A DNA stretch of 64,000 bases from Halostella litorea. Its GTDB lineage: Archaea > Halobacteriota > Halobacteria > Halobacteriales > Natronoarchaeaceae. Shown piece after piece: positions 39,542 through 51,258 of this stretch (the stretch's first letter is position 1; every line of letters begins with the position of its first letter). A model generated the notes under the pieces. That model was not told the origin of the DNA and searched no databases. It saw only the letters and a program-made list of their open reading frames with translations. Made by a program: the position numbers and the translations under genes. Location: assembly GCF_004785955.1 (NCBI RefSeq), contig NZ_ML214300.1, forward strand, positions 823,789 to 887,788, given 5' to 3'.

Positions 39542-41821
39542 ATGGGTAGTAAAAATAATATTTCTGAGGTGTGGGCGGACGTCGTCGACGCGCTCCCGGG
39601 AGCCGTCGGGATCCAGGCCGACGGCAGGTTCGTTTCGGTCTCCGCGGAACTGGCCTCGCTGCTCGGCAGCGAGGCCGACACGCTGGTCGGGGAGCCGTGG
39701 CGGGCCGCGTTCGACGACGAGGGGGGCGAACGCCTGGCGGCGGCGGTCGAACAGGCCCACGCGGCGGGACGGTGGGAGGGCCGGGTTCGGGCCGGCGGCG
39801 GCGCTCGACTCGAACTCACGTTGACGGTGACCGACGGCGGCACGCTCGTCTGGAGCGCGACCGAAGCGGAGGACGACCCGCCGGGGGGAGCCGCCTCCGA
39901 GACAGGGTTCGCGACGGACCCCCACCTCGCCGGGGAACTCCTCGACGGGATGCACGCCGTGGCGTTCACGCTCGACGGGCAGGGGCGACTGGACCGATGG
40001 AACGGGGCACTACCGGACCGAACCGGCTACGACCACGCGGATCTCGACGGGATGGCTGTCGAGCGGCTGGTGGCGAGCGACCACCACGCCCGGCTCGGGC
40101 GGCTACACGCCGAGGGCCGGGGAGTCGAACTCGACCTGCGTACCGCGGACGGAAAGCGACTCGCACACGAGGTCCGGGAAACGACGGTCAGCCCGGAGGA
40201 CGGCGGGGCCGTTCGCTGCCTCGTCTGCTACGACATCGCCGACCGTAGCGAGGACATCAAGCGGTACGAGACGATCTTAGAGACGGTCGTCGACGGCGTG
40301 TACACGCTCGACGAGAACCTCGAGTTCACCTACGTCAACGAGGAGATGTCGAACATCTTCGAACGGCCGGCGTCGGAGTTACTCGGGACCGACCCGCGGA
40401 CGCTGTTCGCCGACGAGAGCCAGATGGCGATGGCCGCGGACATGCGCGAGCGGGTCGTCGAGGGGGACCTGACGACGGGGACCGTCGAGGCACGCACCGA
40501 GACGGCAAGCGGCGAGACGGTCGAACTCGAATCGAACTACCGGTTGCGACACGACCCCGAGGACGGCGAGTTTCCCGGGAGCGTGGGGATCATCAGGGAC
40601 GTCACGGAGCGCAACCAACGCGAGCGAACGCTCGAACGGCAGCGCAACGAACTCGAAACGCTGGACCGTATCACGCACCTCCTGCTGGAAACCACGCGGG
40701 AGTCGCTCAAAACCGCCAGCCGGGACAGCGTCGAGCGGGCGGTCTGTGAACGGCTCGTCGCATCCGACCTCTATCAATTCGCCTGGATCGGCGACCGCGA
40801 GTTCGACGGCGACCGCATCGTGCCCCGGGCGAGCGCCGGCGACGACAGGGGCTACCTCGACGCGATAGCCGACGCCGACGGGGTCGACCAGTGGCCGGAG
40901 AACCGGGCACTCCGGAGCCGGTCGATCGCGGTCGCCACCTCCGCCGACGGGTCCGACGGGGGCTGGCCCGAGGCGGCGAGTGACCGGGGGTTCGAGGCGA
41001 CCATCGCGGTCCCGCTTCGGGACGGGGACGCGGTGTACGGAGTGCTCGTGGTCTACGCCACGCACGAGGGGGCGTTCGGTGACCGCGCCCGGGCCGGGTT
41101 CGACGTCCTCGGGCGTGCCGTCGGGTCGGTGATCTACGCCGCGAACAACCGCGAGTTACTGTTCGCCGACGCCGTGGTCGAACTCGGGTTTCGGGTCCCC
41201 GTCGCGGACTCCATGTTGGCCCGGATAGCGACCGAGTTCGACTGTTCGATCGCGCTCGACGGGTACGTCTCGGCCGGGCCCCAGTGGGTCCTGTATCTCT
41301 CCGTCGACGGGGCAGAAGTCGACGGCGTCGTGGACGAACTGAACGGGGAGACGGGGGTCGAACGCGCTCGGGTCGTCCCGGTGGACGGGGAGGGCGGCCG
41401 GGTCGAACTCGTCATGTCGACGTCGCCGCTTCTCGACACGATCACCAGCGTCGGGGCGACCGTCCGCGATGCGTCCGGGGACGCCACCGGCGTCCGCCTG
41501 ACGGTCGAGGCCCCCGCCGACAGCGACGTCCGTGACATCGTCGACCACGTCCGGGCGGAGTACGACGGGGCCGACCTCGTTTCGACCCGCGAGTACGACC
41601 GGGACGTGACGACGGTCGGCCGCCCGGACGGGGTTCTCGACGAACTGACCGAGAGACAGCGCGAAGCCGTGCAGGCGGCCTATCGGGCGGGTTACTTCGA
41701 CTGGCCGCGTGCGAGCACGGCCGAGGCGGTCGCCGCGTCGCTGAACATCGCCCCGCCGACGCTCCACGGCCACCTGCGGAAGGCCCAGCGAGCCATCCTC
41801 TCGACGCTCATCGAGCAGTGA
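39542..41821 (+). CDS. PAS-GAF regulator with bacterioopsin-activator-type HTH
   Basis: 759 aa. PAS domains lie at residues ~5-110, ~130-225 and ~235-355. A GAF-like domain (~390-540) precedes a bacterioopsin-activator-type region and a C-terminal HTH_10 (LTERQREAVQAAYRAGYFDW to SLNIAPPTLHGHLRKAQRAI). Bat-type proteins sense light, redox or oxygen and activate transcription. The first codons are unusually AT-rich (ATGGGTAGTAAAAATAATAT), which may ease initiation. GGATTAACAC about 38 nt upstream is a possible TATA box. No kinase domain is present, so output is directly to DNA. Confidence 0.87.
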   Translation: MGSKNNISEVWADVVDALPGAVGIQADGRFVSVSAELASLLGSEADTLVGEPWRAAFDDEGGERLAAAVEQAHAAGRWEGRVRAGGGARLELTLTVTDGGTLVWSATEAEDDPPGGAASETGFATDPHLAGELLDGMHAVAFTLDGQGRLDRWNGALPDRTGYDHADLDGMAVERLVASDHHARLGRLHAEGRGVELDLRTADGKRLAHEVRETTVSPEDGGAVRCLVCYDIADRSEDIKRYETILETVVDGVYTLDENLEFTYVNEEMSNIFERPASELLGTDPRTLFADESQMAMAADMRERVVEGDLTTGTVEARTETASGETVELESNYRLRHDPEDGEFPGSVGIIRDVTERNQRERTLERQRNELETLDRITHLLLETTRESLKTASRDSVERAVCERLVASDLYQFAWIGDREFDGDRIVPRASAGDDRGYLDAIADADGVDQWPENRALRSRSIAVATSADGSDGGWPEAASDRGFEATIAVPLRDGDAVYGVLVVYATHEGAFGDRARAGFDVLGRAVGSVIYAANNRELLFADAVVELGFRVPVADSMLARIATEFDCSIALDGYVSAGPQWVLYLSVDGAEVDGVVDELNGETGVERARVVPVDGEGGRVELVMSTSPLLDTITSVGATVRDASGDATGVRLTVEAPADSDVRDIVDHVRAEYDGADLVSTREYDRDVTTVGRPDGVLDELTERQREAVQAAYRAGYFDWPRASTAEAVAASLNIAPPTLHGHLRKAQRAILSTLIEQ

Positions 41822-44512: not shown

Positions 44513-46063
44513 TCACGCCGCGTCGGACGGAGCCGCCTCCTCGCCGTCGGCGACGGACACGGACTCCAGCGTTTCGCTGAGTTCGTCGGCCTGGTCGGCG
44601 AGCCGGTCGATGCTCTCGTTCACGCGGGAGAGCGCCGCGGACTGGGACTCGGCGGAGGTCGCCGCGCGCTCGGCCTCGTCGGCCGTCTCGAGGGAGACCT
44701 CGGTCGCGCCCTCGACGGTGTCCAGCACCTCGCCGACGGAGTCGGTCTGTTGCTCGGTGGTCTCGTTGATCGCCTGGACCCCGGCGTTGGTCTGGGCCGC
44801 TGCCTGTGCGACCTTCTCCAGCGAGTCGACCGCGTCCTCGACGGAGGCGGTCTGCTGGGCGATCCGCTCGCTCGTCTGCTCGGCCTCGTCGACGGTCCGT
44901 TCGGTCTGGGCGCGGATGTTGTCGAGGCGCTCCTCGACCTCGTCGGCCGCCTCCTTGGAGTGTTCGGCCAGCTCCTTGATCTGGGTCGCGACGACCGCAA
45001 AGCCCTCCTCCTGGCCGGTCCGGGAGGCCTCGATGTTGGCGTTCAGCGCGAGCATGTTCGTCTCCTCGGCGATCTCCCGGATCGCGTCGACCAGTTCGTC
45101 GATCTGGGTGACCTCGGCTTCGAGCTGTTCGAGCGCGTCGACGGTCTCGGCGGACTGGGTCTGGATCTCGTTCATGCCGTCGATCGCGTCGTTGGCGGCG
45201 TCACGGCCGGAGCGGCCGACCTCGGCGGTCCGCTCGGCGATGTCGGCGACCTCGGCCGTCGAGACCGACATTTCCTTGACGGTCGCCGAGAGGTCGCCGA
45301 CCTCCTCGGTGGCGCGTTCGAGCTCCTCGGCCTGGGCGTTCGACTCCTCGGATATCTCGTTCAGCATCACGTGGACGCGGTCGGCGCCCTCGCTGACCTC
45401 CTGGGTCGAGAGGGTCACCTCGTGGCTGTAGGCGGCGACCTCGTCGGCGAACCCGCGGATGTCGGCCAGCGTGGTCGCCACCTCGTCGAGGAGCGCGTTC
45501 ACCGCCGCGGCCGTCGTGCGGGCCGTCTCGTCCGACCGCTCCTCGTCGACGCGGGCGGTGAAGTCGTCCTCGTTCGCCGCGCGCTCGACGCACTTCTCGA
45601 CGTCGGCCGCGACGGCGTCGTACTCCCGGACGCGACGGCGCAGCGTCGCGAGGTCGGCTTCGAGGCCGTCGACCTGCTCCCGCAGCGCCGCCGCCTCGCC
45701 GACGCGGTCGTTCAGTTCGCTCGCCGCGAGTTGGAACACGGGGCGGCTCCAGTCCCCGTCGATCCGTGCCCCCGACTCCCGGGTTTCGAGCGCCGTCCGG
45801 AACGCCTCGCGTTCGCCGGAGTCGGTGCTGGCGCGCCGCGCGGACAGCGCCGTCCCGACGACGACGCTCGCGAGCACGCCGGCCCCGCCGGCCGCTGCGA
45901 CGGTGGGGTCGGTGTTGCCCGTCCCGACGAGCGCGCCGCCGAGGACGAGGCCGCCGGCGAGCAGCGTCGCGATCCCGAAGCCGAGCGTCCCGAGGCCGGA
46001 CCCGCCGTCGTCGGGTGCGGCGTCGTCAGGTGCGGCGTCATCGGGTGTGGCGTCGGACGCCAT
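44513..46063 (-). CDS. Methyl-accepting chemoreceptor paired with H-NOX sensor
   Basis: 516 aa from the ATG at 46063, 1 nt after the H-NOX stop (TGA-G-ATG); a GTG at 46072 is the alternative. An acidic N-terminus is followed by two transmembrane helices (residues ~28-50 and ~57-78) with almost no loop between them, so there is no extracellular ligand domain. A long coiled coil then runs to the hairpin tip EIAEETNMLALNANIEASRT and back. Output would be to CheA/CheW and the archaellum. With no sensor of its own, it most likely receives its signal from the H-NOX protein encoded immediately upstream. Confidence 0.9.
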   Translation of the reverse strand: MASDATPDDAAPDDAAPDDGGSGLGTLGFGIATLLAGGLVLGGALVGTGNTDPTVAAAGGAGVLASVVVGTALSARRASTDSGEREAFRTALETRESGARIDGDWSRPVFQLAASELNDRVGEAAALREQVDGLEADLATLRRRVREYDAVAADVEKCVERAANEDDFTARVDEERSDETARTTAAAVNALLDEVATTLADIRGFADEVAAYSHEVTLSTQEVSEGADRVHVMLNEISEESNAQAEELERATEEVGDLSATVKEMSVSTAEVADIAERTAEVGRSGRDAANDAIDGMNEIQTQSAETVDALEQLEAEVTQIDELVDAIREIAEETNMLALNANIEASRTGQEEGFAVVATQIKELAEHSKEAADEVEERLDNIRAQTERTVDEAEQTSERIAQQTASVEDAVDSLEKVAQAAAQTNAGVQAINETTEQQTDSVGEVLDTVEGATEVSLETADEAERAATSAESQSAALSRVNESIDRLADQADELSETLESVSVADGEEAAPSDAA

Positions 46064-46064
46064 C

Positions 46065-46640
46065 TCAGTCACCCGCCCCTCCGGCGGCCGGCGTGGGGGA
46101 GACCCGCTTTACGCTGAACGTGCAGCGGTCGTCGCCCTCGAGCATGCACGTGTGTTCCTTGTAGCGGAACTCCTCGTCGTAGTAGTCGCCGACGCCCTCG
46201 ATGAGGCCGGGGATCCACTGGCACCACTGTCGCTGCGAGCCGTAGACGATCTTCAGCGTCTCCTCCTCGATCTTCTCGATCCGCAACACGGGCGGCGTCA
46301 TCTCGCCCATCCGGCGCTGCCGCAACTGGGTGTGGATCGCCTCGATCTGGGTCAGCAGGTCGAGCCCGTCCCAGTGGGGTTCGACGTACGCGCTCCCGTA
46401 GATCTCGATGATGGGCTCGATGATCCACTTCCCCCAGTCGTACATGAACGTCTTCATCGAGGTGTCGGTGACGTCCAGCGCCGCGTCCAGCAGGTCGACG
46501 GTGACTTCCTCGTCGTACGTCGTGACCGCGACGTACATCTCGCCTTCACGCCCCGCCCGCGCCTGTACGTCCTCCCACGTCTCCGCGTCGTACTGCTCGA
46601 CGACGTAGTCCTTCAGCGTCTTCAGAATGATCCCGTGCAT
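46065..46640 (-). CDS. H-NOX (heme-nitric oxide/oxygen-binding) sensor protein
   Basis: 191 aa. It begins MHGIILKTLKDYVVEQYDAE, the H-NOX start. Aligned by eye to the Thermoanaerobacter H-NOX, it keeps the proximal heme ligand His103 (QIEAIHTQL), the TPP turn, and the heme-propionate motif Tyr133-Gly-Ser135-Gln-Arg137. LIEGVGDYY follows at the expected distance. The residue matching the distal Tyr that stabilises bound O2 (Tyr140 there) is Trp142 here, which predicts NO-selective binding. A Cys-rich C-terminal segment (CMLEGDDRC) is extra. It is stand-alone and soluble, and heads an operon with a chemoreceptor. Confidence 0.88.
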   Translation of the reverse strand: MHGIILKTLKDYVVEQYDAETWEDVQARAGREGEMYVAVTTYDEEVTVDLLDAALDVTDTSMKTFMYDWGKWIIEPIIEIYGSAYVEPHWDGLDLLTQIEAIHTQLRQRRMGEMTPPVLRIEKIEEETLKIVYGSQRQWCQWIPGLIEGVGDYYDEEFRYKEHTCMLEGDDRCTFSVKRVSPTPAAGGAGD

Positions 46641-46740: not shown

Positions 46741-46827
46741 ATGGTCAAGAAGGGAAAGTATATAAAACCACAGTTGTCCAGTACGGGGATGCTAGGAAAA
46801 ACCAAACACCGCATTGACATCTATTAA
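46741..46827 (+). CDS. Possible 28-residue basic peptide with YxxPxL-like motif
   Basis: ATG at 46741 to TAA gives MVKKGKYIKPQLSSTGMLGK plus TKHRIDIY. It is AT-rich and basic, unlike all its neighbours. The series Tyr-x2-Pro-x-Leu-x3-Gly-x4-Thr resembles the leader recognition motif of lasso-type peptides, but no maturation genes are near and the tail is too short for a core. The 296-bp gap it sits in (46641-46936) also contains a strong TATA-like AAGTATATAAAACC (46757-46770), which overlaps these codons. The segment may therefore simply be promoter DNA for the peptidase gene. Confidence 0.25.
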   Translation: MVKKGKYIKPQLSSTGMLGKTKHRIDIY

Positions 46828-50112: not shown

Positions 50113-51168
50113 TCAGGCCGCGGGCAGTTCCGCGACGAACACGGTCCCGGAGGGCTCGTTGTCCTCGACCCACAGGCGGCCGCCGTAACGGTCGACGAGC
50201 GTGTCGACCATGTGGAGGCCGCCGCCGTGTTCGCTGCCGGCGCTCGGCTCGAACACCGATCGCTTCTCGTCGTCCGGGATGCCCGAGCCGTCGTCCGCAA
50301 CCCGGAGCGTCACGGCGTCGTCCCCGTTCTCGACGGCGACGCGGATCCGCAGGTCGTCGGTGTCGTTGTGCTCGGCGGCGTTCTCGACGAGGTTCCGCAC
50401 GACGGAGCGCAGCGCCGCGTTGCCGACGACGGGGGCGCGCTCCGGGAGGTCCGTCTCGACGCCGACCCGGAAGGCGTCGCCGACCCGGTCGGACGTCTCC
50501 GCGGCGATGGGCACCAGGTCGACCGCCTCGAAGTCGGGGTCGTCGCCGAGCGCCTCGGCGATAGCGCCGACGTTCTCGATCACCGCCCGCGTCTCCTCGG
50601 CCTGGTCCCGGATCGCCGTCGCCATGCCGTCCCCGTCCGTCTCGTTTTCGAGTTCCAGGGCGAGCCCGTCGACGACCGCCAGCCCGTTGCGAACGTCGTG
50701 GCGGAGCAGCTCGTTGACGAACGACAGCGTGGCGGTCGCGCGGTTCGCCCGCTCGGCGTCCTCGCGGGCGCTGGCGCTGTAGTAGCCCGCGACGGCCCCG
50801 CCGATCGCGCCGGTGTCGGCGGCCAGCAGGAGGGTGAAGGCCGGCTCGGCGACGGCCCGCCCCTCGAACTCGCGGATGAGGACGCTCACGCCCATCACCG
50901 ACAGCGCCGCGGCCGCGCCGACGACGCACCACACGACGACGGTCAGCCGTCGCTCGGGCGAGAGGTCCGTCCGGGCGAGACGTCGCCCGCCGTACACGAG
51001 GACGAGCGCGGGCGTGCCGTCGAGCGCGAGCGCGAGCAGCGGGCCGCGGAGCGACCCGATCGCGACCGGCTCCAAAAGGAGGTGCTGGACGACGGCGGCC
51101 GAAAACAGAACCGCACCGACCGCGGACAACAGCCACGATGCGTACGCCGCGGCCGCATCGCTGTTCAT
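50113..51168 (-). CDS. Membrane sensor histidine kinase
   Basis: 351 aa from the ATG at 51168, chosen over the ATG at 51177 because CCTATTACGG is centred 26 nt upstream. About four transmembrane helices fill residues 1-135. The phospho-His lies in NELLRHDVRNGLAVVDGLAL, and the ATPase domain has NLVENAAEHND, VADDGSGIPDDEK and GGGLHMVDTLVDRYGG. No periplasmic domain or PAS is present, so the membrane part itself may be the sensor. No response-regulator gene is adjacent. Confidence 0.87.
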   Translation of the reverse strand: MNSDAAAAYASWLLSAVGAVLFSAAVVQHLLLEPVAIGSLRGPLLALALDGTPALVLVYGGRRLARTDLSPERRLTVVVWCVVGAAAALSVMGVSVLIREFEGRAVAEPAFTLLLAADTGAIGGAVAGYYSASAREDAERANRATATLSFVNELLRHDVRNGLAVVDGLALELENETDGDGMATAIRDQAEETRAVIENVGAIAEALGDDPDFEAVDLVPIAAETSDRVGDAFRVGVETDLPERAPVVGNAALRSVVRNLVENAAEHNDTDDLRIRVAVENGDDAVTLRVADDGSGIPDDEKRSVFEPSAGSEHGGGLHMVDTLVDRYGGRLWVEDNEPSGTVFVAELPAA

Positions 51169-51258
51169 ATCCTGCATGTCGGCGACACCGTAATAGGCGT
51201 TCTGGGAGAAATCCGCTAACTCGACGGAGGTTGGGACCGTTCCCCGGCCAGGACGGCC

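Follow-up and report, generated by a model that had tools for sequence, protein, structure and literature searches.

The H-NOX and chemoreceptor genes

The window, by which we mean the whole analysed stretch of 64,000 nucleotides of the Halostella litorea genome, contains two adjacent genes on the minus strand. The upstream gene encodes a stand-alone H-NOX (HNOB) protein of 191 amino acids (46065..46640), and the downstream gene encodes a chemoreceptor, MCP (44513..46072). The H-NOX protein scores 111.9 bits (E 4e-32) with the PF07700 (HNOB) profile, whose curated cut-off is 25.5, and a phmmer search of the PDB retrieves H-NOX of Nostoc, Shewanella, Caldanaerobacter and soluble guanylate cyclase (E 1e-11). 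The AF2 model, for which the input alignment consisted of the window protein and relatives taken from haloarchaeal loci, has pLDDT 86.8. Its top Foldseek match is the Shewanella H-NOX 4u99 (TM 0.82), and VIA-align superimposes it on Nostoc and Shewanella H-NOX with Z 21 over 180-185 residues. Thus the product of 46640-46065(-) is confirmed as a bona fide H-NOX, as claimed in a preliminary description of this region, and the structure modelling suggested there recovers the fold.

The predicted haem ligand, the proximal His103 (codon 46332..46334, minus strand), aligns with H102 of Tt H-NOX and H105 of Ns H-NOX. It is retained in every directly MCP-paired homologue. The haem propionate-binding motif YxSxR (Y133, S135, R137; 46230..46244, minus strand) aligns with Y131, S133 and R135 of Tt H-NOX, so both haem signatures named in the preliminary description stand. 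All 44 haloarchaeal homologues with a proximal His, below called His-type, have His103, YxSxR, Pro117 and the three cysteines discussed below. From these residues we infer haem occupancy and the kind of ligand: most likely, a b-type haem is bound through His103 and would respond to NO or another diatomic.

Position 142 is aligned with Met144 of the Ns and Cys141 of the So protein, and with Tyr140 of Tt H-NOX, the distal residue that stabilises O2. In H. litorea it is Trp (46215..46217, minus strand), which occurs in 3 of the 115 haloarchaeal HNOB proteins, namely the window protein and its two closest relatives. The 44 His-type proteins have Val (26), Leu (10), Phe (3), Trp (3) or Ile (2) at this position. 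According to the published rule, absence of the distal Tyr favours NO over O2 as the H-NOX ligand (PMC8738867, PMC12329717). Since none of the 115 homologues has this Tyr, NO is favoured over O2 and is a plausible ligand of the H. litorea protein. What stands of the earlier claim of NO and not O2 sensing is the Tyr-free distal pocket. Trp142 itself, on which that claim was based, is weak ground for NO specificity, since its indole NH could donate a hydrogen bond and since the 41 His-type proteins outside this small group carry Val, Leu, Ile or Phe.

Three cysteines were missing from the preliminary description. These are Cys140 (46221..46223), Cys165 (46146..46148) and Cys173 (46122..46124), all on the minus strand, which align with the zinc-site residues Cys139, Cys164 and Cys172 of Shewanella H-NOX; the Shewanella sequence aligned was that of the H103G variant in PDB entry 2kil, in which residue 103 alone is affected. 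All three are found in each of the 44 His-type proteins and, together, in 62 of the 71 haloarchaeal homologues lacking the proximal His. The fourth zinc ligand of Shewanella-type proteins is His or Gln (His161 in So; PMC7108781). The alignment places Glu162 of H. litorea at this position, with His163 beside it. In Vibrio cholerae, cysteine oxidation activates H-NOX without haem (PMC7108781), and the Caulobacter protein is activated by cysteine oxidation and not by NO binding (PMC12329717). A redox input through a zinc-cysteine site would fit the H. litorea sequence equally well.

The MCP contains the signalling domain PF00015 (residues 288-456, 104 bits; 44696..45202, minus strand) with the hairpin-tip motif NMLALNANIEA. 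Two hydrophobic segments of about 25 residues each, with few residues between them, are predicted from hydropathy and a low-confidence model to form a two-helix membrane hairpin (residues 25-76 of the 516-aa form; 45836..45991, minus strand), the external loop of which is minimal. The profile search yielded no ligand-binding or HAMP domain above threshold. Both features, the two membrane helices and the missing ligand-binding domain, agree with the preliminary description. HAMP and ligand-binding domains are common in MCPs, but not required, and many MCPs have no ligand-binding domain. The possibility that the stalk is a hidden sensor domain was considered and rejected, as it has no Pfam match and the low-confidence model of the MCP (pLDDT 58.7) is all-helical. 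By hydropathy, the partner MCPs of other genomes share the two-helix hairpin without an ectodomain. At two loci (L068, L070) the H-NOX-paired MCPs have no membrane segment at all, which fits a cytoplasmic input, since H-NOX is an intracellular protein.

There are two candidate start codons of the MCP gene. ATG 46063, 1 nt past the H-NOX stop codon, yields a 516-aa protein, whereas GTG 46072 yields 519 aa and an 8-nt overlap with the H-NOX gene. At 16 related loci the MCP starts with the ATG in ATGACTGA, again with an 8-nt overlap, and this ATG is aligned to GTG 46072 of the window. As the same position is used as ATG in these relatives, GTG 46072 is probably the conserved start. Thus the 1-nt spacing given previously corresponds to an existing ATG, but the conserved start is likelier to lie upstream of it. 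The variant GTGACTGAGATG was found at five loci including the window, and an ATGA overlap of 4 nt at two loci. Altogether, overlaps of 8 or 4 nt are present at 23 of 30 loci, which supports the translational coupling proposed earlier. At the seven other loci, from other families, the MCP gene lies about 120-620 nt after the H-NOX gene, in three cases with a second H-NOX gene between them. None of the 115 HNOB proteins has an MCP motif in the H-NOX reading frame; H-NOX and MCP are separate genes.

A TATA-like element, TTTTATATAC, read from the sequence 5' of the H-NOX gene (46758..46767, minus strand), is a possible promoter of the pair. The window also encodes a PAS-GAF-BAT-HTH10 regulator of the bacterio-opsin-activator type and an archaeal 4TM histidine kinase (39542-41821, 50113-51177). 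These flanking genes show no sign of belonging to the H-NOX–MCP pair.

Distribution in haloarchaea

HNOB matches were found in 85 of 391 haloarchaeal genomes, representing 27 of 86 genera. The 115 HNOB proteins recovered from these loci comprise the 44 His-type proteins and 71 proteins without the proximal His. An MCP gene lies downstream on the same strand of 33 of the 44 His-type genes (30 loci, five families). None of the 71 His-less paralogues adjoins an MCP gene, and one has an MCP gene about 1.5 kb away. Thus a chance neighbourhood is excluded. The association of the proximal His with the MCP is strong (Fisher p 3e-18), although in the tree it is essentially one deep split and thus a single historical association, not many independent events. 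The archaeal search for H-NOX beside mcp that the preliminary description had proposed thus reveals co-occurrence in five haloarchaeal families. Among the species that carry the pair are Natronorubrum bangense, N. thiooxidans, Natrinema versiforme, N. ejinorense, Natrialba swarupiae, Natrarchaeobius chitinivorans and Halocatena marina.

The 11 His-type genes without an MCP include two at contig ends and eight with unrelated neighbours. At the remaining locus (L072) the His-type H-NOX gene is followed by a gene whose coiled-coil product resembles an MCP but lacks the signalling tip. A gene for an FAD amine-oxidase-like protein takes the place of the MCP gene at three loci (L035, L047, L073). 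Tandem arrangements hnox-hnox-mcp, with two divergent His-type H-NOX genes and one MCP gene, were observed at L032, L034 and L060; the tandem products may possibly form a heterodimeric sensor.

The 71 His-less proteins form one clade in the tree, so that the clade without the MCP is the one that has lost the haem His. The residue at this site is Tyr in 40 of them, Ala in 10, Thr in 8, Val in 8, and others in the rest. Most of these genes lie downstream of the ribose-phosphate diphosphokinase gene prs. H. litorea itself has a second H-NOX gene of this kind, missed by the preliminary description (G000:C2:1294289-1294750; L082:4998-5528), with Tyr for the proximal His. Its product is probably not a His-ligated haem protein, judging from this substitution.

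A scan of GTDB contigs with the window H-NOX as the sole query found no close relatives, and the same scan with an alignment query found 12 loci. Plasmid-borne bacterial relatives also exist. The contig scan yielded one bacterial candidate for a split H-NOX/MCP precedent, from a Myxococcaceae MAG (L154); no same-strand MCP gene lies beside its H-NOX gene, and this candidate was rejected, although precedents may exist in other bacteria.

The link to denitrification suggested earlier proves weak. The H. litorea genome contains a nirK gene. The association over genomes is weak, as nirK is present in 25 of the 37 genomes with a His-type gene and in 208 of 391 overall (p=0.08, without phylogenetic correction). 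A truncated globin gene (PF01152, 86 bits) stands divergently beside the H-NOX gene at four loci of one family (L051, L057, L059, L061). Members of this globin family often handle NO or O2.

Chemotaxis genes and motility

The che cluster of H. litorea (L161, G000:C1:522000-541900) is complete and encodes CheW, CheY, CheB, CheA, two CheC, CheD, CheR and an MCP. CheA has the Hpt, P2, dimerisation, ATPase and CheW domains. There are four MCPs in the genome, one of them a HemAT-type protoglobin-MCP, by which O2 sensing is already covered. The paired MCPs were considered as a distinct orthologous lineage, and this was rejected, since the MCP of the che cluster scores as high as most partners. The window MCP is thus of a generic kind, its similarity to the che-cluster MCP being about equal to that with most H-NOX partners elsewhere.

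No archaellin (PF01917), ArlD/E (PF04659) or CheF (PF04283) was found in the H. litorea genome, nor in the four other genomes of the genus. The absence of the archaellum hangs on profile sensitivity; three families concur, the genome is 99.6% complete, and the control, Haloferax volcanii, is positive for all three profiles. The nitric-oxide taxis predicted in the preliminary description is thus contradicted for H. litorea, unless it has an undetected motility organelle. In this organism, the sensor would probably act through a chemotaxis-like pathway on a process other than swimming.

The situation differs among the 37 genomes with a His-type gene. Archaellins are present in 21 and ArlD/E in 23, while 14 have neither and yet retain CheA. 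CheA is found in 36 of the 37, the exception (G182) being from a genus with a marginal CheA match. CheF is lacking in 27. As CheF is the known connection of CheY to the archaellum (PMC9126983), swimming taxis cannot be assumed. Eleven genomes have both archaellin and ArlD/E and no CheF match (G178, G265, G326, G028, G142, G307, G163, G192, G116, G328, G233). Such archaellated genomes may use another CheY adaptor, or their CheF may be too divergent for PF04283.

Possible mode of action

The explanation that we favour, with moderate confidence, is that a haem (NO-type) and/or zinc-thiol H-NOX acts in trans on the hairpin MCP and through it on CheA, with a non-archaellar output. The two genes would form a single sensory unit divided over two proteins, with the soluble H-NOX as the input. 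The signal would be NO or another diatomic at the His103 haem, and/or oxidation of the zinc site formed by Cys140, Cys165 and Cys173. It would change the conformation of H-NOX, and the activated protein would dock on the cytoplasmic stalk of the partner MCP. The MCP, a membrane hairpin with no ligand-binding domain of its own, would then alter CheA activity via the CheW/CheA array. As both the archaellum and the adaptor CheF are missing in H. litorea, the output via CheY would not be archaellar swimming and may be adhesion, pili, biofilm or some other process. In archaellated relatives the same unit could serve taxis.

A serious rival is a redox sensor, given that Caulobacter H-NOX responds to cysteine oxidation and not to NO. 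The protein would sense oxidants at the zinc-thiol site, independently of haem or modulated by it, as in V. cholerae and Caulobacter, and NO would not be the physiological signal. The exact alignment of the three cysteines with those of Shewanella H-NOX is consistent with this, as is their retention in His-type and His-less proteins alike, which exceeds that of the haem ligand. However, the MCP-paired clade always keeps His103, YxSxR and Pro117, residues that would be dispensable for sensing by thiols alone; the fourth zinc ligand is replaced by Glu162; and the cysteines may be structural. We regard this reading as possible, though unlikely on balance. Sensing of O2 is improbable. The characterised H-NOX-MCP unit (Tt/Ct H-NOX) does bind O2 (PMC9814294, PMC12329717), and Trp142, at the position of Tt Tyr140, might act as the hydrogen-bond donor in aerosensing of the kind known for the MCP-fused Caldanaerobacter H-NOX. 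However, nearly all homologues have Val, Leu, Ile or Phe at this position and none has Tyr, Trp9 and Asn74 of Tt H-NOX are aligned with Leu9 and Ile of H. litorea, and the genome already has the HemAT-type MCP.

The combination of H-NOX with an MCP, and the archaellum and CheA genes of many His-type genomes, would suit a pair that steers swimming in response to NO. We give this little credence, since archaellin, ArlD/E and CheF are absent from the whole genus sampled and, as noted above, CheF or the entire archaellum is absent from many other carriers. It is very improbable that the genes are neighbours by chance or merely share regulation, H-NOX signalling elsewhere. Eight His-type genes do lie beside unrelated genes, in three cases one and the same FAD amine-oxidase-like gene, but the 8-nt overlap is conserved and the adjacency extends over five families, and this in genomes that may have, like H. 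litorea, only four MCPs.

More generally, it is quite possible, if short of probable, that in archaea without archaella H-NOX acts in trans on the CheA array and that NO or redox state thereby controls a non-motility output. H-NOX proteins are common in haloarchaea, where they form two clades with unlike fates of the haem His, one of them tied to the MCP. The 14 genomes with a His-type gene and CheA and no archaellum make the role of a chemotaxis pathway without a swimming organelle testable.

Comparison with known systems

In the literature searched, which left most subscription papers outside, H-NOX and haloarchaea were not found together, the H-NOX papers being bacterial or animal. A survey of archaeal chemoreceptors does not mention HNOB (PMC9680633), and a 2016 census of archaeal pili reported no evidence of chemotaxis systems regulating other type IV pili (PMC4858521). 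The parts of the system are known; an unfused NO-type H-NOX with an MCP in archaea, partly archaellum-free, was not found in this literature.

V4R and MetOD1 domains have a related fold and a three-cysteine cluster like that of the H. litorea H-NOX (PMC5847659), and the latter matches V4R with 29.6 bits, slightly below the cut-off. Unlike these domains, it has the haem His and YxSxR, and its HNOB score is far above that of V4R. The haloarchaeal HemAT also combines a haem sensor with an MCP; however, it is a fused O2 sensor with a different haem fold, protoglobin. The H-NOX-MCP of the Tar4H type, from Caldanaerobacter (Thermoanaerobacter) tengcongensis and other strict anaerobes, likewise has an H-NOX input, an MCP output and a membrane region. 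However, it is one fused polypeptide, has the distal Tyr140 and binds O2 stably (PMC9814294, PMC8738867), whereas the H. litorea pair is archaeal and consists of two proteins, with no distal Tyr and with the zinc-site cysteines.

The zinc-thiol H-NOX of V. cholerae and Caulobacter have cysteines at the same positions, but differ from the H. litorea protein, with its Glu, in the fourth ligand and have another partner. The stand-alone NO-sensing H-NOX of the facultative anaerobes Shewanella and Vibrio share with it the separate gene beside that of the partner, the proximal His, the three cysteines and the absence of the distal Tyr. Their partner, on which they act in trans, is the histidine kinase HnoK or a c-di-GMP enzyme, whereas the partner in H. 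litorea is an MCP predicted to feed CheA. If the proposed mechanism is true, the H. litorea pair would be an archaeal counterpart of bacterial biofilm control by H-NOX, made of chemotaxis parts.
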